DNA of 64,000 nt from Arthrobacter rhizophilus (GTDB taxonomy: Bacteria > Actinomycetota > Actinomycetes > Actinomycetales > Micrococcaceae), in contig NZ_JAPFFT010000018.1 in the NCBI RefSeq assembly GCF_026241105.1, positions 1 through 64,000 on the forward strand, written 5' to 3'. The notes under the pieces are model-generated. The model was not told the DNA's origin and did no database searches. It saw nothing but the letters and a program-made list of their open reading frames with translations. Made by a program: the position numbers and the translations under genes. Positions 35,761-47,756 of this stretch are shown piece after piece (the stretch's first letter is position 1; each line of letters begins with the position of its first letter).

Positions 35761-36660
35761 TTAGTTTGAGCGCCTGGTGGGCGCGACGACCTTGATAACT
35801 GCGGAGTCGTCGGCGGCGGCGAGGCCTTGGGCCTGGCCGAGGAGGTAGAGCTGTTCGGCAGCGGCGGCAACGGGTGCGGCCAGGCCGGCGGCGCGGGTGG
35901 CCTTGCCGACGATGCCCATGTCCTTGACGAAGATATCCAGGCGGCTGAGGACCTCGGCGCCTTCCTCGTTGTATGCCTCGAGGATTCGGGGGCCGCGGTT
36001 GGACAGCATGAACGAGCCGGCGGCACCTGCTTCCAGGGCGGCGAGGGTCTTCGCCTGATCCAATCCGAGGGCGTCAGCGAGTGCCATTGCCTCGGCGGCA
36101 GCGGCGATGTGGACACCGCAGAGGAGCTGGTTGACGGTCTTCAGAGCCTGGCCGTCACCGGGTTTGTCGCCCACGATGCTCAGGGTGGAGGCCAACAGTT
36201 CCAGCGCGGGGCGTGCTTTTTCGCGGGCGGCCGGCGTCGCGCCAACCACGATCAGGAGGTCGCCCTCGCCGGCACGCTTGGGGCCGCCGGAAAGGGGCGC
36301 GTCAACGAGTTCGACGCCGTACTCCGCCAGGCGGGCCACAGTGGCCGGAATCGCTTCAGTACCGACAGTGCTGCCGAGGATCACGACGGCGCCCGGCTTG
36401 AGCACCGGCGCGACGCCGTTGGCGCCGAAGAGGACGTCGTCGAGCTGTTCGCCGTTGCGCACGGCAAGGAGCAGGGCATCGGCGCCTTCCGACGCTTCAC
36501 GGGCCGAAGCGAAGGTGCGGATTCCGGCGTCGGCGGCGAGCTTCAGCCTCGATTCGGCGATGTCGAAGCCGTGGACAGTCAGCTGGGTTGCCAGGCGGGT
36601 GGCCATCGGCAGGCCCATGGCGCCAAGGCCGAGGACGGCGACGGTGTAGTTGCTGGTCAT
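35761..36660 (-). CDS. ltnD: L-threonate/3-hydroxyacid-type dehydrogenase
   Basis: 299 aa, beta-hydroxyacid dehydrogenase family. VAVLGLGAMGLPMATRL is the NAD(P) loop, VDAPLSGGPKRAGEGDL the substrate-binding signature, and Lys in LKTVNQLL the catalytic residue. The ATG at 36660 has GGAGAACACC upstream. It sits directly downstream of a four-carbon acid-sugar kinase. In characterised pathways this pair oxidises and phosphorylates L-threonate or D-erythronate. No decarboxylase or isomerase partner is visible in this window. Confidence 0.85.
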   Translation of the reverse strand: MTSNYTVAVLGLGAMGLPMATRLATQLTVHGFDIAESRLKLAADAGIRTFASAREASEGADALLLAVRNGEQLDDVLFGANGVAPVLKPGAVVILGSTVGTEAIPATVARLAEYGVELVDAPLSGGPKRAGEGDLLIVVGATPAAREKARPALELLASTLSIVGDKPGDGQALKTVNQLLCGVHIAAAAEAMALADALGLDQAKTLAALEAGAAGSFMLSNRGPRILEAYNEEGAEVLSRLDIFVKDMGIVGKATRAAGLAAPVAAAAEQLYLLGQAQGLAAADDSAVIKVVAPTRRSN

Positions 36661-36683
36661 GGTGTTCTCCATTGAATTCAGTG

Positions 36684-38186
36684 TTAGAAAGTGTTGCTGA
36701 GCTTGCGCGTGACCTGCGCCAGGGATTCGTCATCGCCCACGTTGCCGGCGAAGACGATGTACGGGATGCCCTTCGCGGGTCCGTCCACCGGCTCCCACAG
36801 GGAGACGATGCCGGGCAGCATAGGGCCGCGAACAATCGCGTGGCGGATTTCCAGGCCGTGCGCGGCCACATCCGAGGACGTGATCCCACCCTTGGCGATG
36901 ACGAAGCGCGGCGGGAAGGCCTTGAGCGTCCGGTTCACGATCGCCACGACGGCGGCAGAGACGGTGCGGGCAATCTGCAGGCTCGCCGCGGCGTCGTCGG
37001 TCTTGATGAGCAGGCGGCTCGTGTGGACAATCACGTCGCCGCTGTGGAGGGCGTCGACGACGGCGGCGACCGTTTCGTCGAGATAGGCTTCCGCGCCGCC
37101 GACGAGAAGCCTCTCGACGTCGATCTCGACGATGCGGGCAGCTCTGTGCTGGGCGGTCAGGACGTTGAGCTGGCGCGTGGTGAGGCCGACATGGGAGCCA
37201 ACAACAATGAGGCCCCCGGCTGTGGAGGGAGTGTTGCCTTCGTAGGCTTCCTCGCCGCTGAGTGCCTCGCGGATTTCCTGGCCGATGCGGCCGCGGACGA
37301 ACGGCGGGCCGACGCGGTAAAGCAGCTTCTTGCCGCGGCGTTCGGCCTCTTCGAGTCCAAGGGCGAGTGCACGGAGGTCGTTCTCGGTGACAATGTCCGC
37401 GACGATCGGCGTGGATTTGGTAGCCGGTTCGATGGCATCGGCGATGGCCTTCGCGGAGAGCTCGGGATCTCCGGCGGATCCGTTCGCAGCGGCAGCGCCG
37501 GCGCGGATGATGTTCAGGTCGAGGACGATCACATCGCTGGCCGGGAAGCGGCCCTGCGACTTTTCCTCCACATATTTGGCCATCTCGGAGTTGGCGAACC
37601 CGAAGCTCGCATCCTTGGCGAACTCGGTCTCGGCAACCGGGGTGAGCTTGCCGGCGTCGTCCCCGGTGCCGCGCATGTAGTGCACGCCGCCAATGGTGAC
37701 CCGTCCCGCGTCGGGAAACGCCGGGACTATCACGACGCCGTCGGTCGCTTCTCCGGTCACGTCGGCGACGGTGGCTGCAATGACGTTCGGTTCCAGCGGA
37801 TAGTGGCCGCGGAGGGTGGAATCGGAGCGGCTGACAAATCCGAGGCGAACATCCTTGGCGGCTGCGGCGACGGCGTTGCGGACGATTTCCTCGTTGCGGG
37901 CAGCGGCCTCAACCGGGTCCAGGCTGCGGGTGTTGGTCAGCACGTACACCGCGGGCTGGGACTTGCTTTCCGCGATGTGGGCGAACGCCCACGCGAAATC
38001 GGCGACCTCCCAGCGGGTAAGAACCGGCAGGTTGGCGACTGACTGGGTGCCCGTGGGGTCGTCGTCGAGGACTACCAGGACGCGGGGCGAGTTTGCGGAA
38101 GACGCTGCTACGGCGTCGGCAACCAGCTGCGCGGGGATCTGGACTTCAGCCGGGAAGGCGGCCAGAACATCGGCTTCAAGGGTCAC
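36684..38186 (-). CDS. otnK: Four-carbon acid sugar kinase (DUF1537 family)
   Basis: 500 aa, full length. The N-terminal domain starts RVLVVLDDDPTGTQSVA and contains SRSDSTLRGHYPLE. The C-terminal nucleotide-binding domain has FVIAKGGITSSDVA and FAGNVGDDESL. The family phosphorylates 2- or 3-oxo derivatives of tetronates. The GTG start at 38186 has a GGAG ribosome site. It is the first gene of the minus-strand unit; an exact copy of a 19-bp palindrome lies ~45 bp upstream. Substrate (threonate versus erythronate) not decidable, so the symbol is provisional. Confidence 0.88.
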   Translation of the reverse strand: MTLEADVLAAFPAEVQIPAQLVADAVAASSANSPRVLVVLDDDPTGTQSVANLPVLTRWEVADFAWAFAHIAESKSQPAVYVLTNTRSLDPVEAAARNEEIVRNAVAAAAKDVRLGFVSRSDSTLRGHYPLEPNVIAATVADVTGEATDGVVIVPAFPDAGRVTIGGVHYMRGTGDDAGKLTPVAETEFAKDASFGFANSEMAKYVEEKSQGRFPASDVIVLDLNIIRAGAAAANGSAGDPELSAKAIADAIEPATKSTPIVADIVTENDLRALALGLEEAERRGKKLLYRVGPPFVRGRIGQEIREALSGEEAYEGNTPSTAGGLIVVGSHVGLTTRQLNVLTAQHRAARIVEIDVERLLVGGAEAYLDETVAAVVDALHSGDVIVHTSRLLIKTDDAAASLQIARTVSAAVVAIVNRTLKAFPPRFVIAKGGITSSDVAAHGLEIRHAIVRGPMLPGIVSLWEPVDGPAKGIPYIVFAGNVGDDESLAQVTRKLSNTF

Positions 38187-38229
38187 TGTGCACTCCGTCG
38201 TGGGAAATCTCTGGTTCTGAACGTAAATG

Positions 38230-38248
38230 TAAGATGTCAGACATCTAA
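38230..38248. promoter_or_regulatory. 19-bp palindromic operator, copy 1
   Basis: TAAGATGTCAGACATCTAA, with arms AGATGT/ACATCT around CAG. It lies between the divergent acid-sugar kinase and alpha/beta-hydrolase genes. An identical copy precedes the GntR gene at 39136. The size and symmetry fit FadR-subfamily GntR operators. Confidence 0.85.
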
Positions 38249-38316
38249 TATTTGAATGCTAGTGTGACACACCCACTTTCGGCTGTGCAAGTGTCAGTCG
38301 TCACTATGCTTGGCGC

Positions 38317-39138
38317 ATGCTTCAAGAGCCTCCCGCCGTCGCGGCGCTGCACGTGGACATGCGCCATCCAACGGCCGCCATCACGACGCCGGCCCTCCAG
38401 TCCCAGCCTCCCGTCCTGTTGCTGCACGGCTGGGCCTCGACGTCCGCTTATTGGGAGCCGCTCGCCGCCGAATTGCTCGACGCCGGGCGTTCAGTGTGGA
38501 TCGTCGATTTGCCTGGGTATCACCGCGGCGATGCATTGCCTCCGGGCTTCGAGTGGACGCTTGAGTCGGCGGCGGCTTCCGTTGCGGCCATCGCCGCCCG
38601 GAACCCCTCGCCGGTCCACATCGCGGGCCACTCCATGGGCGGCAGCGTGGCGCTGACACTGGCCGCAAAGCATCCGGAGTTGGTGGCGAGTGTGGCCCTG
38701 ATCGGCATGGTGCCGGCCCCGCCGAACGATGCCTTCAAGTCGATGCTCGAATCCCAGCTCGGCCAAGGCTTCATTGACGACGCGACGCGCGCTAAATGCA
38801 TGAAAGCCTGGTTTGGGGCGTTGCTTACGGAGGACGAACGGCTGCTGAGCCGCGGATTCGAGCTCCCGTTTGAGGTTCTGGGGCCTAGCGGCCTCGCGGC
38901 AATGGCGGGCGTGGCTGCGGATGTCCCCGAAAAGGTGACCGTGCCGACCCTAGTGATTGCCGGCGTCGGGGACCGCTTACGCTCGCTGGACCAGGCGGAA
39001 GCCTTCGTAGCGGCCAGTCCCATGCGAAGGCTGGCGGCCATCCCGAACGCCGGGCACAGCCTCCATTGGGAGCAGCCGCATGCTTGTGCGGTGGCGCTCG
39101 GCGCGTTTTGGGACGAAAGCCGGCAACCCTCGGCGTAA
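38317..39138 (+). CDS. Alpha/beta hydrolase
   Basis: 273 aa. The oxyanion region is VLLLHGWASTSAYW, the nucleophile elbow is GHSMGGS, an acid is likely in VIAGVGDRLRS, and the catalytic His is in IPNAGHSLHWEQP. It is divergent from the acid-sugar kinase across operator copy 1 and ends 29 bp before the GntR gene, so it is probably in the same regulon. A lactonase or esterase that opens a tetronolactone is a reasonable but unproven role. Confidence 0.85.
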   Translation: MLQEPPAVAALHVDMRHPTAAITTPALQSQPPVLLLHGWASTSAYWEPLAAELLDAGRSVWIVDLPGYHRGDALPPGFEWTLESAAASVAAIAARNPSPVHIAGHSMGGSVALTLAAKHPELVASVALIGMVPAPPNDAFKSMLESQLGQGFIDDATRAKCMKAWFGALLTEDERLLSRGFELPFEVLGPSGLAAMAGVAADVPEKVTVPTLVIAGVGDRLRSLDQAEAFVAASPMRRLAAIPNAGHSLHWEQPHACAVALGAFWDESRQPSA

Positions 39139-39154
39139 GATGTCAGACATCTAA
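39136..39154. promoter_or_regulatory. 19-bp palindromic operator, copy 2
   Basis: Identical to the site at 38230-38248. It overlaps the hydrolase stop codon and ends 12 bp before the GntR start, overlapping the ribosome-binding region. This implies autoregulation. Confidence 0.85.
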
Positions 39155-39166
39155 GAACGGAGCACC

Positions 39167-39868
39167 ATGGCACGCAAGTCGCTGGTCGGCGTCGTAGCTG
39201 ACGAGCTACTGGACCGCATCGTCGCGGGCGAATTTCCGCCGGGCACTGTGGTTCCCGGCGAACTTGAGTTGAGCGCAAAGCATGAGGTCAGCCGCATGAC
39301 CGTGCGCGAGGCGATGAAAACCCTCGAGGCGCAGCGAATCCTGAGCGTCGAGCGTGGCCGGGGAACGTTCGTCAATCCCCTGAACCGCTGGGCTTCCCTT
39401 GAAGCGGTATTGCGTGCGGTTTCGGAAGGAAAGAACGACGCCGCAGCGGCCGTCCAGCTCATCGAGCTGCGGCGCATGCTCGAGACCGGCGCCTGCGAAC
39501 TCGCCGCCTCACGGGTCTCCCCCGAGGAAATCGACCAGCTGCAGGTTCATGTGTCCGCCATGCAGAAAGCCCACGATTCCAATGATGTGAGCGCGTTCGT
39601 CGAGGCGGACCTCGGGTTCCACGATGTCATCCTGCATGCTTCCGGCAACGTGTTCGTGGCCGTGCTCTTCGAACCCCTGCACCGCGTCTTGGAAGCCCGG
39701 CGCACCCAGACCTCGCAAATCCCCGACATCCAGCGGCACGCGATCGGACATCACCGGGCCATCCTGAAAGCCCTCGAAGCCGGAGACTCTCCCCGCGCCC
39801 GCGAGGCCATGGACGCGCACATGCAGCAAACCCTGGACGACCTCAAGACGTACGTCCTGGAGGCGTAA
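39167..39868 (+). CDS. FadR/GntR-family regulator of the acid-sugar locus
   Basis: 233 aa. Winged-helix GntR domain (VVADELLDRIVAGEFPPGT, then VSRMTVREAMKTLEAQRIL) and an all-helical FCD effector domain (ADLGFHDVILHASGN, HHRAILKALEAGD) with the metal/ligand histidines of the family. GGAG precedes the ATG. The two identical palindromes before the kinase/hydrolase pair and before this gene make it the likely local repressor, released by a tetronate intermediate. Confidence 0.92.
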   Translation: MARKSLVGVVADELLDRIVAGEFPPGTVVPGELELSAKHEVSRMTVREAMKTLEAQRILSVERGRGTFVNPLNRWASLEAVLRAVSEGKNDAAAAVQLIELRRMLETGACELAASRVSPEEIDQLQVHVSAMQKAHDSNDVSAFVEADLGFHDVILHASGNVFVAVLFEPLHRVLEARRTQTSQIPDIQRHAIGHHRAILKALEAGDSPRAREAMDAHMQQTLDDLKTYVLEA

Positions 39869-40047: not shown

Positions 40048-40932
40048 TCACATGAGCCCGTCGAGGCAGGCTGCCCTGAGTTTGCTCACAAGGGGCGACT
40101 CCGACATCTCTGCGCTGCAGATCAAACTGACCTTCGATATGGCATTCGAGTCCTCGATGTCCAGGTAAGTCAGGCCGGGAATAGCAAATGCCTTGAGGGA
40201 ATCGGGAACAACCGCGACGCCGAGCCTCGCAGCCACGAGGCCCAGGATTGTGGGGAACTGAACCGCCTCCTGAGCGATGTCGAACTCTACGTCTGAGGAA
40301 TGGAGTAGCGCGGCGATGTGGTCGAACAGCCGCGAGATGCGGTTTCTCGGGAAGGCGATGAACTTCTCCCCCGCCAATTCTCCCAAACTCACCGAGGAGC
40401 GGGCGGCCAGCCGATGATCCACGGCCACCGCAACTACCAGGGGCTCATTCCGCAGAAGGGTCTGGGATATGCCAGGACCAGCCCTGACCTCCCTCGCGAT
40501 TCCAGCGTCCAGGTTTCCCGCGGCGATGAGGTCCATCTGCTCATCCGTGGTTACTTCCCTGAGATCAAGTTCGATACCTGGCCACTCGGACCGGAGGTAC
40601 CTGACGACAGGTGGGATTGCCGAAATTGCGGCCGACGAGACGAAGCCCAGCCGAAGCCGTCCGATTTCGCCGTTTCGTGCCTGACGCAGGGCCGCGGCCA
40701 TTGCTTCGTATTGGGTCAGGACTTTCCTGGCATGGGTCAAAAGCAGTTCGCCATCAGCGGTGAGCTGGACATTGCGCGAATTGCGCACGAAGAGCTGCAC
40801 TTTGCATTCCTCTTCGAGTTTTCGAATCTGTTGGCTGAGGGGAGGCTGCGCCATATGCAGGCGCTCAGCAGCGCGATTGAAATGCAATTCCTCGGCCACC
40901 GCGACGAACAGTTCAAGGCGTCGAAGGTTCAT
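40048..40932 (-). CDS. LysR-family regulator of the adjacent catabolic operon
   Basis: 294 aa. N-terminal winged HTH (LRRLELFVAVAEELHFNRAA, PPLSQQIRKLEEE) and the two-lobed periplasmic-binding-like effector domain (GRLRLGFVSSAAISAIPPVV; VAARLGVAVVPDSL). It resembles the BenM/CatM type by its start and length. It is divergent from the aldehyde-dehydrogenase-led operon across 118 bp. The co-inducer is unknown but is probably the operon's substrate or first intermediate. Confidence 0.92.
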   Translation of the reverse strand: MNLRRLELFVAVAEELHFNRAAERLHMAQPPLSQQIRKLEEECKVQLFVRNSRNVQLTADGELLLTHARKVLTQYEAMAAALRQARNGEIGRLRLGFVSSAAISAIPPVVRYLRSEWPGIELDLREVTTDEQMDLIAAGNLDAGIAREVRAGPGISQTLLRNEPLVVAVAVDHRLAARSSVSLGELAGEKFIAFPRNRISRLFDHIAALLHSSDVEFDIAQEAVQFPTILGLVAARLGVAVVPDSLKAFAIPGLTYLDIEDSNAISKVSLICSAEMSESPLVSKLRAACLDGLM

Positions 40933-40950
40933 GGAACAAGACTAAACAGA

Positions 40951-40969
40951 TATTGATGTTCGTCAAATA
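40951..40969. promoter_or_regulatory. Candidate LysR binding dyad
   Basis: TATTGATGTTCGTCAAATA is an imperfect inverted repeat with outer TATT/AATA-like and inner TTGA/TCAA arms, just upstream of the LysR start in the divergent promoter region. It fits the interrupted T-N11-A style of LysR boxes. Confidence 0.45.
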
Positions 40970-41050
40970 GATACTTCAGTGGCCGGGCCGCGAGGTCTAC
41001 CGTTGATCGTGAGGACAGTCACACATCAACAAGCAGCAAGAGGTTAGAGA

Positions 41051-42511
41051 ATGCCCGTAATGACCGAGCCCGCCAGTAGCTTCATCAACGGCGCCTGGGT
41101 AGAAGGCGCCGGGGCCATCACCTACCGTTTCAACCCGGCAGCGCCGACCGAAGCGGTTACCGCATACCGTCAAGCAGGTTCCGAGGATCTGGCAAAGGCA
41201 ATGCAAGCCGCAACTGAGGCTGCGCCAGCTTGGGACCGGCTCGGAATTCTGGCCAGGGGTCGCATCCTGTCAGCTGCGGCGCGGCTGATCCGCGAACGGG
41301 CCGAAGAGATCGCTAGGACGATGACGGCAGAGCACGGCAAGACACTGGCAGAATCGCGGATGGAGGTCGACGCCTCGGCTGACACGTTTGACTACCACGC
41401 CGGCTCTGCTCGTAACCCGGTCGGCACTGAATACCCTTCCAGCCACCTTGACGAGCGCATCGTTACAGTCCGTAGGCCTTTAGGCATCATCGGTGTAATC
41501 ACGCCATGGAATTTCCCCTTGCAGATCCCGGCCTGGAAAATCGCTCCAGCCTTGCTGCATGGAAACACGGTGGTTTGGAAGTCTGCAAGCAACACCCCCG
41601 GCGTCTCTGTCCTCCTGATGGACATCCTTGCGAAAGCAGGCGTTCCCGCGGGCGTCGCGAACCTACTCCTAGGACCAGGTTCGCTCGGTTCTGAACTCGT
41701 CTCGCATCCGAAGATCGCCGGGGTGACATTCACGGGGTCCGTCCCCGTGGGCCACCAGATCCGCTCTATCGTCTGTGGTCGCGGCGCGAAGCTTCAAATG
41801 GAACTCGGAGGGCACAATGCGACGCTCGTTCTCCCTGACGCCGACCCGGAACTGGCCGCCAGCAGTGCGGTCAACGCAGCCATGGGGTCTACCGGCCAGA
41901 AATGCACCGCAACCCGCCGGATTATTCTCGTCGGCGACGGGCATGAGGAATTCCTTAAAAGGTTGACGGAGAAGGTCGCTGCCCTGGCTGTGGGCCCGGG
42001 CACGGATCCATCGGTGCAGATTGGCCCGGTTGTGTCGGCTTCGGCACGGGACGAGATCACATCTGCGATCAGCCAAGCCCTCTCCGAAGGCGGGCAGATC
42101 ATTGCCCAGGCCGCGGTTCCGGACTCGGACGGATGCTATGTTCCGCCCACTGTCCTGACCGGGCCGGCATCTTTGACTATCTGCCATGAAGAGGTGTTCG
42201 GACCCGTTGTGACAGTCCTGCGGGCTTCCACCCTGGATGATGCTATCGCGTTGGCGAACAGCACCGACTTCGGGCTGACAGCTGCGGTCTTCACAAGCGA
42301 TGAACGTGCTGCCCGAAAATGCGTCACCTATCTGGACGCCGGGCTGGTGAAGATCAATGCGCCGTCCACTGGATCGGAACTGCACGCACCATTCGGCGGA
42401 ATGAAAGATTCAACATTCGCCGGGCCCCGTGAACAGAACAGTGAAGCCGCCGCAGCCTTCTTCACACATGAAAAGACTGCCTACCTGCGCCTCGCGCCCG
42501 AAAAGGCATGA
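41051..42511 (+). CDS. NAD(P)-dependent aldehyde dehydrogenase
   Basis: 486 aa. Glu251 in MELGGHN and nucleophile Cys285 in GQKCTATRR are 34 residues apart as in the family, with PWNFPLQIPAWKIAPALLHGN, FTGSVPVG and HEEVFGPV. It is closest to semialdehyde/ketoglutarate-semialdehyde-type ALDHs. AGAGG precedes the ATG. It is the first gene of a LysR-linked operon, coupled to the next gene by an ATGA overlap, and probably oxidises an aldehyde produced by the downstream enzymes. Confidence 0.92.
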   Translation: MPVMTEPASSFINGAWVEGAGAITYRFNPAAPTEAVTAYRQAGSEDLAKAMQAATEAAPAWDRLGILARGRILSAAARLIRERAEEIARTMTAEHGKTLAESRMEVDASADTFDYHAGSARNPVGTEYPSSHLDERIVTVRRPLGIIGVITPWNFPLQIPAWKIAPALLHGNTVVWKSASNTPGVSVLLMDILAKAGVPAGVANLLLGPGSLGSELVSHPKIAGVTFTGSVPVGHQIRSIVCGRGAKLQMELGGHNATLVLPDADPELAASSAVNAAMGSTGQKCTATRRIILVGDGHEEFLKRLTEKVAALAVGPGTDPSVQIGPVVSASARDEITSAISQALSEGGQIIAQAAVPDSDGCYVPPTVLTGPASLTICHEEVFGPVVTVLRASTLDDAIALANSTDFGLTAAVFTSDERAARKCVTYLDAGLVKINAPSTGSELHAPFGGMKDSTFAGPREQNSEAAAAFFTHEKTAYLRLAPEKA

Positions 42512-44232
42512 TCATGACACTTCAGGACCACCGAGTCGTACCCAAGCTACGGCCCCCGCACGAGGTTCTCTCCGGCACCGACATGAACGGAGCCTGGGCC
42601 ACACGTCACAGCTTCGCCCGCACCTTCCTCCGTCGCGCAGCAGCCCGGAGATGGTCCGTAACCAGGACCCGCCTCGAATTCGACGCCGAGGGCTGCGGTA
42701 CGGCGGTCTACACCGTGGATGCCGAAGGCCGGAAGCTGAGCTTCATCGCCTTTTCCCGCACTTTGGATGAAAGCGAACGCACGGATCGTGTTATCGCTGA
42801 TGCTTGGGACGTCACGGCCGCCCTCATCGACGGCGATCTCAACCCGGAACGGGAAGCGGACTTGCGGCGCAATGTCCCTATCCAGGAACGTGGCCGCGTT
42901 GACCCTGACACGATCATCCTTACGAGGGCCAATCGCAGTGCCCGCTTCTTCGACTACGTCAGCGATTGCCTGGCCGCCGGCGACCAGCCAGATGTCGGTT
43001 TCATCGGGCCCAGCCCGTACCTCATTCGAAGCACCGCGTTCTACGGCAACGGAAAATTCGGCCTGAAGGAGTTCTCCGACTTCCCTGCGGACCACCCGCT
43101 AGCCGTCCCATACCGCTCCCAAATGCTCACCGCCTGGCTGCTGCGCGAGCTCAGTATGGACATGGTGGAGCACGTCGCCCGCGAAAAGGCCTTGCAACGC
43201 GGCACGACAGCCGCCTCCCTCGACGCCGAGTGGGGCAAGTATCTGGGACTGGGCAACGCAACTGGCCTGGGCATGGTGCCCTTCGTTATCAACCATCCCG
43301 GCTATCTGGACGTGTGGTGCCGGTTGCGGGAGGTTCCACTCGCCGCAGGTCTCGGCCAGGACTATCGCCCCAACCATCCTGATCTCGCACGCGTTGCGGA
43401 ACTGCTCAGACAGGCGGACCGCTACCTTGCAGAGAAACACGCACTCGAAACTGCCCCGTTCCTGCCCACCGAAGCGATTAGGCCCCAACTACAACAACTC
43501 CTGGCGGAGTTGCAGACACACATTTCCACCGGGTCCGAGCCTGCCCGAGTGCTCGATCGCCTCCACGACCTCGCGACGGCCCTCAGCCCGGAAGCCCGTG
43601 GACTCTTCGCCTCCATCGTCATTGAACTGCGCTCAGACTTTGACGATGCCGCGGAGGCCCTCCTCACAGTTCCCGACGCCACATGGTTCGACACTGCGAT
43701 GCACTGCTGGGAGCTGAAGCAGTTGCTCGACACGAATTATGGCTGGGTCCGCGCCTACGACTTCGCGGATCCGGAACGCGCAAGCTACTACTGGTTCTCC
43801 TCCGAAGCCAATGAAGAACCCCGTCGGGCACTACGCGCTGATCGCCACCCTGGCACAGTGGAACACTGCACTGACATCGCTCGCCGGATCAGCGCCCTCA
43901 CGGAAGACCTGGAAAGGTTTCCGGCACACCGCAGCATCACGGAGTTTCTCCTGGCCCACCCCGGGCACCGCTTTGCCGCAGCCCGTATTCAGCAAACCCG
44001 GCCTTACTACTACGGAGAACTGCGGGACAACCTCATTGACGCCGAGTTCCTGCCCTTGAGCACCCAACGTTTTCAGCTGGCCACGTACGGGATGAACAAC
44101 TTCAGCCCCCAATCCACCGACTGGCTACGCGTCACGCTGTTCAGCGGAGCTCCCCGGGTAGTGGACATCAACCACGGCACCGACGCCGATGATTGGCTCT
44201 TCCCCACCGCACCGAAGGAGCCGGCACGATGA
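42508..44232 (+). CDS. Uncharacterised 574-aa protein of the catabolic operon
   Basis: I do not recognise the family. It is soluble, without a signal peptide, cofactor loop or metal cluster. Notable segments are RRWSVTRTRLEF, YLIRSTAFYGNGKFGLKEF, KYLGLGNATGLGMVPFVI (Gly-rich, perhaps a binding loop) and a charged helical C-terminal half ending YYYGELRDNL and DDWLFPTAP. The ATG at 42508 overlaps the ALDH stop, and a second ATG lies at 42514. The stop overlaps the next gene, so it is an integral part of the pathway, presumably catalytic or a large accessory subunit. No function assigned. Confidence 0.7.
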   Translation: MIMTLQDHRVVPKLRPPHEVLSGTDMNGAWATRHSFARTFLRRAAARRWSVTRTRLEFDAEGCGTAVYTVDAEGRKLSFIAFSRTLDESERTDRVIADAWDVTAALIDGDLNPEREADLRRNVPIQERGRVDPDTIILTRANRSARFFDYVSDCLAAGDQPDVGFIGPSPYLIRSTAFYGNGKFGLKEFSDFPADHPLAVPYRSQMLTAWLLRELSMDMVEHVAREKALQRGTTAASLDAEWGKYLGLGNATGLGMVPFVINHPGYLDVWCRLREVPLAAGLGQDYRPNHPDLARVAELLRQADRYLAEKHALETAPFLPTEAIRPQLQQLLAELQTHISTGSEPARVLDRLHDLATALSPEARGLFASIVIELRSDFDDAAEALLTVPDATWFDTAMHCWELKQLLDTNYGWVRAYDFADPERASYYWFSSEANEEPRRALRADRHPGTVEHCTDIARRISALTEDLERFPAHRSITEFLLAHPGHRFAAARIQQTRPYYYGELRDNLIDAEFLPLSTQRFQLATYGMNNFSPQSTDWLRVTLFSGAPRVVDINHGTDADDWLFPTAPKEPAR

Positions 44233-45221
44233 GTCTTCATGAGCGGCTTACCGTCGTCGATGGACTCCAGATCAGCAATTGGGACCGTTCTGTCCTGGAG
44301 GAACTTCGCACTGGCGGCGTCAGCGCCGTCAACGCCACCTGCGCCGTCTGGGAAAACGCCGCCGATACCCTCCGGTCGGTAGGCCAGTGGCTGGAACTCG
44401 CGAACCGCAACAAGGATCTTGTGTTCCTTGCAGAAAGCGGGGAGGACATCGACAAAGCGAAGCGGCAGAACAGAATTGCCGTGTTCCTGGGATTCCAGAA
44501 CACAAGCCCTTTCGAAGATGACTACCGAAACGTGGAGCTCTTCCATCGGCTCGGCGTCCGGATAGCCCAACTGACTTACAACAACCAAAACCTTCTCGGT
44601 GGCGGGTGCTTTGAGTCCAACGATGCCGGCCTCACCCGGTATGGCCGCGTAGTTGTGGAGGAGATGAATCGGGTGGGAATGCTCATCGACCTTTCGCACG
44701 TAGGGTACAGGACCAGTCGTGAAGCCATCGAGGCCTCATCGGTCCCGGTCTCCATCACCCATTCCAACCCTCTCTGGTTCTATGACACACCCCGCAACAA
44801 GCCCCACGAGGTCATCCAGCCCCTCGTCGAGCGGGGCGGTGTCATCGGTTGCTGCCTGTACCCGACTGTCAGCGGCGGGGAGCAGGTCACCCTCGAAAGT
44901 TTCTGCAGCATGGTCTCGCGAATGGTCGACTTGTACGGCCCCGCCAGCATTGGTATCGGAAGTGACTGCACAAGAGGCTGGAACCAGGAATTTGTCGGCT
45001 GGCTCCGCAATGGCCGGTGGCAGCCCCTTCATCCAGAAGACGCTCCCACTTGGCCGGTGTGGCCGAACTGGTTCAGCGGTCCCCTGGATTTCCCCCGGCT
45101 CACGGAGGGTTTGTCGTCGGCCGGCCTGACCGACGACACCATCGGCGCTGTCATGGGTGGCAACTGGAGCCGGCTATTCACCGAAGTCATGGACACCACG
45201 AAGGAACACGCGCATGTCTGA
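44229..45221 (+). CDS. M19 (membrane dipeptidase)-like amidohydrolase with altered metal site
   Basis: 330 aa, TIM-barrel of the renal-dipeptidase family. The second-metal His ligands are intact: His157 in IDLSH and His178 in SITHSN, 21 residues apart as in human dipeptidase. Asp246 in IGSDCTRG matches the catalytic Asp. The first-metal HxD is replaced (VDGLQI, Leu13 and Ile15), and the bridging Glu appears as Gln90 in FLGFQNTSP. It may therefore bind one metal or catalyse a different C-N cleavage. ATG at 44229 by ATGA overlap with the upstream gene; no signal peptide. Confidence 0.83.
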   Translation: MSLHERLTVVDGLQISNWDRSVLEELRTGGVSAVNATCAVWENAADTLRSVGQWLELANRNKDLVFLAESGEDIDKAKRQNRIAVFLGFQNTSPFEDDYRNVELFHRLGVRIAQLTYNNQNLLGGGCFESNDAGLTRYGRVVVEEMNRVGMLIDLSHVGYRTSREAIEASSVPVSITHSNPLWFYDTPRNKPHEVIQPLVERGGVIGCCLYPTVSGGEQVTLESFCSMVSRMVDLYGPASIGIGSDCTRGWNQEFVGWLRNGRWQPLHPEDAPTWPVWPNWFSGPLDFPRLTEGLSSAGLTDDTIGAVMGGNWSRLFTEVMDTTKEHAHV

Positions 45222-45957
45222 CACCATCGCCCAGACGGCACACGAAGCCGGCCCACCGGCCCGGACGATTTCCATCCAACCACGCGAAATCAAGGAGGCA
45301 GCCTACAGGGCTCTTTGTGCGGCAGGCGCGGACCCCGCCGAAGCCCAGGAGGGGGCCTTCGCGATTCTCCGCGCGGAATCCGACAACCACAACGGACTCG
45401 GTCAGCTCAAGGCATTGATCGACGCGGACTGGGAAACACCGTCCCAGCCCGCGACGGCGGCCCCCGCCTTCTGGGACTGCGGAAACCTGACGGACCTCGT
45501 CACCACCCGCCAACCCGGGCTGCGCACAGCCCTGCAGCTCATGGACTGTGCCTTGGACTCCGGCGCGGACGAAATCTCCGCGGCTCGAACCAGCAGTCCT
45601 TGCATCCCAGCCCAGCTCTGGAACGACCTGCTGATCCGGCGCTCAGCTTCGTTGCAAAGGACAATCATTCTGGCCACATCCACGGCAGGCACCGAAAAAG
45701 GGGAAACTGCCCGAATTGAATACCGGACCCTCACCGGCCAAGGAGTCATCACCAGTCAGGAGCCTCCCCACAGAGTGATCAATTCGCTTCCCGACGGACA
45801 TCAAGACGGAGAGATGACGAGCATCATCGTGCTGCCAACTACTTCTCCCCTAGATCCGAAGACAAGTTCCATTCCCACCAAGCCCCTGAAAGTCAGCGAA
45901 CAAGAATGGCAGAAGATGTACCAGTTGTCCCGGAAATTCCTGGTGCCGGACACATGA
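45214..45957 (+). CDS. Uncharacterised 247-aa protein, possibly DUF3726-like
   Basis: Start at the ATG at 45214, overlapping the M19-like gene by 8 bp. The N-terminal pattern ISIQPREIKEAAYRALCAAG, followed by an acidic EAQEGA helix, recalls DUF3726 proteins and the N-terminus of Ldh2-type dehydrogenases, but the rest (a Cys in ALQLMDCALDSGADEI, beta-rich middle) gives no clear fold. No membrane span. Its stop overlaps the RidA start, so it is co-translated. The DUF3726 link is tentative. Confidence 0.55.
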   Translation: MSDTIAQTAHEAGPPARTISIQPREIKEAAYRALCAAGADPAEAQEGAFAILRAESDNHNGLGQLKALIDADWETPSQPATAAPAFWDCGNLTDLVTTRQPGLRTALQLMDCALDSGADEISAARTSSPCIPAQLWNDLLIRRSASLQRTIILATSTAGTEKGETARIEYRTLTGQGVITSQEPPHRVINSLPDGHQDGEMTSIIVLPTTSPLDPKTSSIPTKPLKVSEQEWQKMYQLSRKFLVPDT

Positions 45958-46334
45958 ATACCATAGTGAGAACCCAGTTCACAGACGGCAATCCCCGGCC
46001 TTACTCCGCCTCCGCAGCAATCGGCGGTCTCGTCTTCATGTGCGGCCAAGTACCGTCCCGCGACGACGGAACCGTACCAGCTGACATGCCTGGCCAGGTT
46101 ATCCAGGCTTTCGACAACCTGGAAGCGGCCCTCAATCGCGCGGGGTCGAGTCTCTCACATCTTCTCAAACTCACCGTTTTCCTGGCCGACCTCGACGAGT
46201 TTGATCAGTACAACGCCGCCTATCTCACAAGGCTCAGCGGCTACCCTCTGCCTCCCCGCACCACCGTTCAGGTAGCGAGGTTCAGGGGCGAGAAGCGCAT
46301 CGAAGTCGATGCCATCGCAACAACAACAGCGTGA
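45954..46334 (+). CDS. RidA-family (YjgF/YER057c/UK114) protein
   Basis: 126 aa. It shows the family strands SASAAIGGLVFMCGQVP, the helix IQAFDNLEAALNRAG and YPLPPRTTVQV, with Arg at the position that binds the carboxylate of imines. RidA enzymes hydrolyse reactive enamines/imines to ketones plus ammonia. ATG at 45954 by ATGA overlap. In a catabolic operon it suggests that the pathway generates an imine or enamine intermediate. Confidence 0.88.
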   Translation: MNTIVRTQFTDGNPRPYSASAAIGGLVFMCGQVPSRDDGTVPADMPGQVIQAFDNLEAALNRAGSSLSHLLKLTVFLADLDEFDQYNAAYLTRLSGYPLPPRTTVQVARFRGEKRIEVDAIATTTA

Positions 46335-46367
46335 CCGTATGAACGTACGGATCTGCTGGGGTATCCA

Positions 46368-47756
46368 ATGACGCTATCCCCTTCCCGGATCGGAACCATC
46401 ATGCTCCTCCCAACCAAAACCACCGAGGTTACCCTTGACTCGGCGCCACTCAATTCGTTCCACAAACGCCTTACCCTTTTCAGTTCAGGGGGTCCGTTCC
46501 TCGACGGATATATCCTCGCCATCATCGGCATCGCTTTGGTGCAAGTCATTCCCGCCTGGCATATGAATGACTGGTGGAACGGTCTCATCGGCGCCTCAGC
46601 GCTGATCGGCGTCTTCCTCGGCGGCTTGATCTTCGGAAACCTGACCGACAAAATCGGGCGCAAACTTATGTACACGATCGACCTCATTGCCATCATCGTG
46701 TTCTCCATCGCCCAGTTTTTCGTTCAGGAACCGTGGCAGCTGTTCGTCCTGCGGCTCATGATCGGCATCGCGGTGGGCGCCGACTATCCCATCGCAACCG
46801 CTCTCGTCGCAGAATTTGTCCCAAAGAATTGGCGTGCCCGCCTCCTTGGCGGCCTCAATGCCATGTGGTTTGTCGGGGCGACAGTAGCCGCCTTCATCGG
46901 TTATTGGCTTCTGTCCTTCGAGGACGGGTGGCGATGGATGTTGCTGTCCTCTGCCGTTCCCGCACTGCTGATCCTCATCGCAAGGGCCACCATCCCTGAA
47001 TCTCCCCATTGGCTCGTCGGGAAGGGCCGTCACGAGGAAGCCCTCGATATCCTCAAGAAGACCATCGGCGAGGGCGCGACGCTGGACGGAATCACGGCAC
47101 ACGATCCGAACGCCGCCAAGCTCAGCACCGCGAAAGCCTTCCGGCTGGTGCTGACCGGCGGCTATCTGAATCGAGTCGTCTTCATCTCAATTTTCTGGAC
47201 TTGCACCATCGTCACGCTGTTCTCGATCTACGCCTTCGGTCCACAGATCCTCGCGCTGTTCAACCTCCAGTCTGGTGACGAGGCGAACATCGGCTACGGA
47301 CTGATCAACCTGTTCTTCCTCGTTGGCAACATCGTCGCTCTCCTGGTCGTGGACAAACTCGGCCGGCGGCCAGTCCTGATTTGGGGCTTCGTCCTCTCCG
47401 GCGTCGGGCTCCTTTTCCTCGCAGTGTTCCCGAACGCACCGCTCGCCCTGATCGCTCTGGCCTTCGCCTTCTACGCGATCTTCAACGGCGGACCTTCAAT
47501 TCTCGAATGGATCTACCCCAACGAACTCTTCCCGACCAAAGTCCGGGCGACCGCCGTCGGCCTTTGCACGGGAACCAGCAGGGTTGGAGCCGCCATCGGC
47601 ACGTTCGCTACTCCGCTAGCACTGACACATCTCGGTCTCTCCGGGACCATGTGGATCGCGGCGGGCATCGCACTCATCGGCGCAGCAGTCAGCTACTTCA
47701 TGGCTCCCGAGACCAAGGGCCAGAACCTCGAAGAAGCAGCCTCCCTTCACATGTGA
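46368..47756 (+). CDS. Sugar-porter-type MFS transporter
   Basis: 462 aa, 12 helices. GNLTDKIGRKLMYTIDL (loop 2-3), RLMIGIAVGADYPIA, PESPHWLVGKGRHEEAL (PESPRWL motif before the central loop) and DKLGRRPVLIWG place it in the SP/AAHS-like group, near YgcS/NiaP importers of organic acids. The start may be 46368 or 46401. It closes the six-gene operon and presumably imports its substrate. Confidence 0.85.
   Translation: MTLSPSRIGTIMLLPTKTTEVTLDSAPLNSFHKRLTLFSSGGPFLDGYILAIIGIALVQVIPAWHMNDWWNGLIGASALIGVFLGGLIFGNLTDKIGRKLMYTIDLIAIIVFSIAQFFVQEPWQLFVLRLMIGIAVGADYPIATALVAEFVPKNWRARLLGGLNAMWFVGATVAAFIGYWLLSFEDGWRWMLLSSAVPALLILIARATIPESPHWLVGKGRHEEALDILKKTIGEGATLDGITAHDPNAAKLSTAKAFRLVLTGGYLNRVVFISIFWTCTIVTLFSIYAFGPQILALFNLQSGDEANIGYGLINLFFLVGNIVALLVVDKLGRRPVLIWGFVLSGVGLLFLAVFPNAPLALIALAFAFYAIFNGGPSILEWIYPNELFPTKVRATAVGLCTGTSRVGAAIGTFATPLALTHLGLSGTMWIAAGIALIGAAVSYFMAPETKGQNLEEAASLHM

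Follow-up and report, generated by a model that had tools for sequence, protein, structure and literature searches.

N-methylglutamate dehydrogenase (Mgd) takes part in the catabolism of homarine, and homologues of the AraC-type regulator gene tmaR often adjoin mgd, according to PMC13390433; six of the proteobacterial relatives described below also adjoin genes of the sarcosine-oxidase (Sox)/Mgd type. Homarine genes are not named in the available parts of PMC9723723, PMC9038784 and PMC12817926. In the dimethylglycine loci of Vibrio and Pseudomonas (pepD-hp-dgcAB), a predicted dipeptidase gene lies beside N-demethylation genes, with its role left unstated in the available portion of PMC12093977. 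Here we describe a seven-gene block in a 64,000-nucleotide stretch of Arthrobacter rhizophilus DNA (contig NZ_JAPFFT010000018.1, positions 1 to 64,000; hereafter the window), which resembles the pepD-hp-dgcAB loci in having an M19/dipeptidase-type gene and differs from them in that no dgcAB-type gene is found among the window proteins scanned. The block is composed of a divergent gene for a LysR-type regulator and, on the plus strand, of genes for an aldehyde dehydrogenase (ALDH), a protein of 574 amino acids (aa), an M19-type protein, a 247-aa protein, a RidA-type protein and an MFS transporter. The frames from ALDH to RidA overlap successively by 4, 4, 8 and 4 bp, and 33 bp separate RidA from the MFS gene; the LysR-linked operon proposed from sequence alone was thus confirmed in its genes, coordinates and frames. 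By analogy with related loci, we propose that this operon catabolises an N-methylated betaine, most likely homarine (N-methylpicolinate) or a similar betaine of the pyridinium or cyclic type, and we give this explanation as a whole roughly even chances.

The substrate class is proposed because relatives of the 574-aa gene occur together with genes for importers of betaines, for enzymes of the sarcosine-oxidase type and for AraC-type regulators. A tblastn search detected homologues of the 574-aa protein in 168 of 72,556 plasmid records, and those listed come from proteobacteria and one haloarchaeon. We fetched the loci of some 20 of the 168 records, where M19 and DUF3726-like genes mostly accompany it. 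Two loci in Mesorhizobium/Bosea are more remote and lack M19. Two layouts recur. In the first, which is seen in Roseateles, Shinella, Aminobacter, Pararhizobium, Phaeobacter, Ruegeria TM1040, Tritonibacter and Aliiroseovarius, the order is LysR, ALDH, M19, 574-aa and DUF3726, usually joined by Ldh_2 and by a glycine-betaine ABC or a BCCT transporter. In the second, an IclR-type regulator gene is followed by the 574-aa gene, a hypothetical gene, M19 and a spermidine-type ABC transporter (Sinorhizobium, Bosea, Alloyangia and Neorhizobium). The haloarchaeon Natrinema has the 574-aa gene with an Ldh_2-like gene and a BCCT transporter. Compared with the six relatives that adjoin Sox/Mgd-type genes, the window operon has RidA in the place of Ldh_2, MFS in the place of BCCT or ProXVW, and no adjacent demethylase. 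The homarine operon is reportedly 'homABCDER', five genes and a regulator; LysR, ALDH, M19, 574-aa, DUF3726 and Ldh_2 would also make five plus one, a match in number that is no test of identity.

We scanned 40 loci uniformly with tblastn (the window, L014-L034, L043-L052 and L057-L064). Betaine transporters are found in 17 of them (BCCT in 11 and ProV in 6), and in the actinobacterial loci L050 and L051 the BCCT gene is placed between the ALDH and 574-aa genes. RidA occurs without Ldh_2 in 19 loci (the 12 of the window clade, L026, L028, L029, L031, L045, L058 and L064) and Ldh_2 without RidA in 13 (L025, L027, L032, L043, L044, L046, L047, L048, L052, L057, L059, L060 and L061, with the L048 and L052 copies on the opposite strand), and none of the 40 has both. 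Genes for sarcosine-oxidase-type alpha subunits lie in six loci, all among the 13 with Ldh_2 and none among the 27 others (P-value 0.0004, Fisher test, which ignores relatedness), and each of the six has an AraC-type regulator nearby. Two AraC-type regulators that we tested score highest with GbdR, under its cut-off. This pattern suggests that one imine has two fates, hydrolysis in the RidA loci and reduction in the Ldh_2 loci. Such a model would account for the lack of loci with both RidA and Ldh_2, for the company that sarcosine-oxidase genes keep with Ldh_2, and for the genome of the window, in which no Ldh_2 match was found.

In Phaeobacter inhibens DSM 17395 the module is present twice, in different versions, on a single plasmid (NC_018291.1). 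One (L026) is linked to RidA and lies beside dimethylsulfoniopropionate (DMSP) demethylase genes, and the other (L060) is linked to sarcosine-oxidase-type genes. The Ldh_2 gene of the latter (L060:12402-13400) is unannotated and matches in two pieces, and is possibly broken.

In the pathway that we propose, the MFS protein would bring the N-methylated betaine into the cell, where the 574-aa protein, as the main subunit, would form with the 247-aa protein a two-subunit enzyme that opens the betaine molecule. The opened product would bear an aldehyde and an N-methyl imine or enamine, and possibly an N-formyl group too. ALDH would oxidise the aldehyde to give a skeleton like that of 2-oxoglutarate, the atypical M19 protein may remove an acyl group or catalyse a nearby hydration or hydrolysis, and RidA would release methylamine from the N-methyl imine by hydrolysis, leaving a 2-oxo acid (2-oxoglutarate). 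In the 13 Ldh_2 loci the same imine would be reduced by Ldh_2 to N-methylglutamate, which a complex of the sarcosine-oxidase or N-methylglutamate-dehydrogenase type would then demethylate; an Ldh_2 reductase with this product would have its place between ALDH and Mgd. DpkA, which is related to the Ldh_2 reductase, makes N-methylamino acids. With homarine as substrate, one carbon would be lost on the way to a C5 product, through an oxygenase-like step of the 574/247 pair and an amide hydrolysis by the M19 protein. We infer all of these reactions, their order and the 574/247 complex. The sequence-only reading had outlined the import of a nitrogen compound, its cleavage through an imine or enamine and the oxidation of the resulting aldehyde. 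This outline is consistent with the Arg and Glu that RidA retains in alignment with those of TdcF (we take the Arg to be catalytic) and with the betaine importers of many homologous loci, and the comparison narrows its substrate to what may be N-methylated betaines. The genome of the window has one copper amine oxidase gene, whose product could in principle use methylamine.

The 574-aa and 247-aa proteins had both been described as belonging to no nameable family, which holds for the former. The 574-aa protein has no match in Pfam or NCBIfam and a PDB match at chance level only (E-value 0.16). With 13 diverse members, a PDB profile search returned six matches with E-values of 0.5 or worse, and in a Pfam scan no family matched more than one of them. 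Neither Pfam nor PDB has a match for the 247-aa protein, whose single NCBIfam match is at chance level (E-value 0.061); it is predicted to adopt the Ldh_2 fold. Its AlphaFold2 model (predicted local distance difference test, pLDDT, 79.9; predicted template modelling score, pTM, 0.78) aligns with 15 Ldh_2 entries with Z-scores of 11.4-13.5 and root-mean-square deviations of 4.1-4.8, the next fold reaching a Z-score of 4.8 (structural matches under 5 were ignored), and Foldseek also returns Ldh_2 (best E-value 5e-7). While this predicted fold is that of the Ldh_2 / type II malate dehydrogenase family, the protein is shorter than the matched chains (247 versus 311-361 aa) and lacks an aligned SHG motif. 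The motif, which we take to be catalytic in Ldh_2, is present in three of three Ldh_2 proteins and has an aligned equivalent in none of eight sequences of the 247/DUF3726 type. L049 carries HHG four columns from the aligned SHG position, and the site of the His nearest to that position in the window clade is occupied by His in 6, Gln in 2 and Lys in 4 of 12 sequences. The 247-aa protein is probably a non-catalytic subunit.

The relationship between the 247-aa protein and DUF3726 (PF12525, cut-off 22.1 bits) emerges from its counterparts. The protein itself has no Pfam match to this family, and a tblastn search with it found nothing in the plasmid records. A profile comparison with six counterparts gives an E-value of 1.2e-4 and a probability of 55. 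Five of the eight counterparts scanned pass the DUF3726 cut-off, and L050 matches this family weakly (0.0018). Some match Ldh_2 under its cut-off (L049, 2.2e-7, and P0015, 4.8e-9). The gene after the 574-aa homologue is DUF3726 or hypothetical in the annotated plasmid loci that were fetched, save in L046, where it is fused, and in L048, where it is unannotated and a 42-bit tblastn match is present. In Mesorhizobium sp. 131-2-1, DUF3726 and the 574-aa protein form a single protein of 814 aa. Because of this fusion, seen in one Mesorhizobium, we consider that the two proteins act together and are probably one enzyme. A literature search for 'DUF3726' found nothing.

The M19 protein, previously read as an M19-like hydrolase, does belong to PF01244 (241 bits against a cut-off of 26), and its His157, His178 and Asp246 are invariant. 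The metal-site Glu of solved dipeptidases is not kept in it: in the alignment Gln90 stands opposite the Glu found in 3id7 and 5lx0, presumably the metal bridge, and 16 of the 16 relatives aligned also have Gln. Among solved M19 structures, the nearest relative, 2i5g ('amidohydrolase'), which presumably comes from a dimethylglycine-type locus, shares this Gln. Since Gln replaces the metal-site Glu, ordinary dipeptide hydrolysis by this protein is doubtful. The PF01244 match would suit an ordinary operon for the utilisation of dipeptides or D-amino-acid dipeptides with the M19 protein as key dipeptidase, but we consider this very improbable, given the Gln of all aligned relatives and the two proteins of other families that always accompany M19 in 11 named loci. 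The genome of the window has a second M19 gene (L054; G000:C78:10062-10784), also with Gln; its open frame runs into membrane-protein-like sequence, with 484 aa between stops, and may be fused, truncated or frameshifted. As for the other enzymes, RidA passes PF01042 (cut-off 27.3 bits), and the nearest NCBIfam models of ALDH are of the 2-oxoglutarate-semialdehyde type, with NF042993 at the top.

The gene set recurs elsewhere, as the sequence-only reading had asked to be checked; a lack of co-occurrence in other genomes would have refuted that reading, and the genes do co-occur. The order of all seven genes from LysR to MFS is kept in 11 of the 11 named loci (four in Arthrobacter, two each in Pseudarthrobacter and Paenarthrobacter, and one each in Specibacter, Cryobacterium and Tersicoccus), which were found through exact peptide patterns and are therefore near relatives and not a census. 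All seven genes are under purifying selection when compared to the nearest relative, L014 (ratio of nonsynonymous to synonymous differences, pN/pS, 0.06-0.31). The 247-aa gene changes fastest and is still constrained (0.31 versus L014 and 0.53 versus L015), the other six ranging from 0.06 to 0.19. Because of this recurrent order and selection, the block is not a chance assembly. Each flanking gene of the window is common to at most one of the 11 loci, L014 having most of them; since none is shared by more than one locus, the conserved unit is the seven genes. Of 149 related genomes, 5 have the 574-aa gene and these 5 also have the 247-aa gene; the 574-aa family is found in 5 of 396 genomes spread over the phylum, both searches being samples that include the genome of the window. 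In L023 and L024 the ALDH and 574-aa genes each match in two pieces, through sequencing error or decay; because of their interrupted 574-aa frames, these loci were excluded from alignment A1 and included in A2 and in the counts.

Several observations weigh against the operon acting on a betaine and against the pathway. Because the window operon has an MFS gene instead of a betaine transporter and no adjacent demethylase, its substrate class is deduced from relatives whose 574-aa proteins are about 30-45% identical. The scan of 24 kb around the operon found no Sox/Mgd-type alpha subunit, the rest of the genome not having been searched, and Sox and Mgd are not distinguished by NCBIfam. The 40 loci were taken from hit lists and not at random, in stretches of 11 to 24 kb, and 12 of them form one clade and are thus non-independent; eight (L030, L033, L034, L049, L050, L051 and the distant L062 and L063, counted here without an M19 match) have neither RidA nor Ldh_2. 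The IclR-type loci L028, L033, L034, L045 and L064 combine spermidine-type ABC transporters with an operon without ALDH, and members of the 574-aa family may differ in substrate, with different compounds for the two layouts. RidA falls under the NCBIfam Rid cut-offs (TIGR00004, 74.5 versus 106.25; PRK11401, 66.5 versus 222), and 13 Rid-family genes in the genome of the window make one more RidA weak evidence alone. ALDH does not reach the cut-off of the alpha-ketoglutaric semialdehyde dehydrogenase model NF042993 (445 bits versus 770). The AlphaFold2 model of the 574-aa protein, built from 10 close homologues, is unreadable (pLDDT 46.4) and no fold was drawn from it.

The MFS importer and missing demethylase of the window clade, the spermidine-type transporters of the IclR-type relatives and the eight loci without RidA and Ldh_2 would all suit a nitrogen compound other than a betaine, such as a cyclic amine, a lactam, an imino acid or an N-acyl amino acid, on which RidA and ALDH would act as proposed with no N-methyl group involved. 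We regard this as unlikely, though a serious contender, since BCCT or ProV is found in 17 of the 28 loci outside the window clade, two of them actinobacterial. The betaine may otherwise not be of the pyridinium type, and a proline, hydroxyproline or pipecolate betaine would then feed a cyclic imino-acid pathway. Rieske-type oxygenase genes near L029, L032 and L060, mandelate-racemase-family genes near L029 and dihydrodipicolinate synthase (DHDPS)-family genes near L030 and L064 point that way, as does the presence within Ldh_2 of the piperideine-2-carboxylate reductase fold 1wtj. The proline-betaine operon contains a Rieske demethylase and a betaine epimerase, whereas neither of these, nor a DHDPS gene, is found among the nine proteins scanned from the window block and its upstream neighbours or in the seven-gene unit, and we give this alternative a low probability.

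A gene for a thiamine pyrophosphate (TPP) enzyme adjoins 6 of the 19 RidA loci, 5 of them with a succinate-semialdehyde dehydrogenase (SSADH)-type gene, and none of the 13 Ldh_2 loci, an association that is not significant (P-value 0.059) and is further weakened as support for the pathway by SSADH-type matches in other loci. The loci with a TPP enzyme include the IclR-type loci L045 and L064, and the L015 copy passes the NCBIfam PRK08199 cut-off. Such genes beside RidA would suit the onward use of 2-oxoglutarate. In 4 of the 11 named loci, the TPP enzyme and SSADH-type genes lie downstream of the operon (L015:14558-17775, L017:14307-17602, L022:8608-11057 and L024:11714-14871).

The features of the block are collected in Table 1. 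The imperfect dyad between the LysR and ALDH genes is, judging from its sequence, a possible LysR site. The top NCBIfam match of the MFS protein, under its cut-off, is aromatic acid/H+ symport. Upstream of LysR, the genes at window positions 35761-39868 include those for an alpha/beta hydrolase and a GntR-type regulator; just one of the 11 named loci shares them, and they lie outside the conserved unit.

Table 1. Positions of the seven genes and of the control region in the window
Feature	Position	Strand	Evidence and remarks
LysR-type regulator, divergent	40048..40932	-	PF03466 and PF00126 above cut-off; ortholog in 11/11 named loci; outside the 41051-47756 span
LysR-ALDH intergenic region	40933..41050	.	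Conserved blocks (alignment of 12 loci)
Imperfect dyad ATATTGAT-N4-GTCAAATA	40950-40969		In the LysR-ALDH intergenic region
Aldehyde dehydrogenase (ALDH), 486 aa	41051..42511	+	PF00171, 477 bits
574-aa protein, family without name	42508..44232	+	Plasmid homologues; invariant residues in 13 diverse members
M19-family protein, 330 aa	44229..45221	+	PF01244, 240.7 bits; Gln at metal-site Glu position
247-aa protein	45214..45957	+	Predicted Ldh_2 fold; SHG motif not aligned
RidA-type imine/enamine deaminase, 126 aa	45954..46334	+	PF01042, 85.8 bits; alternative upstream start 45906 also open
MFS transporter, 462 aa, presumed importer	46368..47756	+	PF00083, 234 bits

These comparisons tie two proteins that have no Pfam or NCBIfam name in this organism to the probable breakdown of betaines across bacteria and a haloarchaeon, and predict that one of them, the 247-aa protein, is a pseudoenzyme subunit. 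More tentatively, and with our doubts outweighing our confidence, the 574-aa protein, paired with a non-catalytic subunit of the Ldh_2 fold, might represent a new class of two-subunit enzymes that open the ring of N-methylpyridinium or cyclic betaines. Some actinobacteria might then end the pathway with a RidA that releases methylamine, in a proposed swap that would replace the N-methylamino-acid reductase and the demethylase. If the link to homarine is true, a pathway familiar from marine work would extend to actinobacteria.

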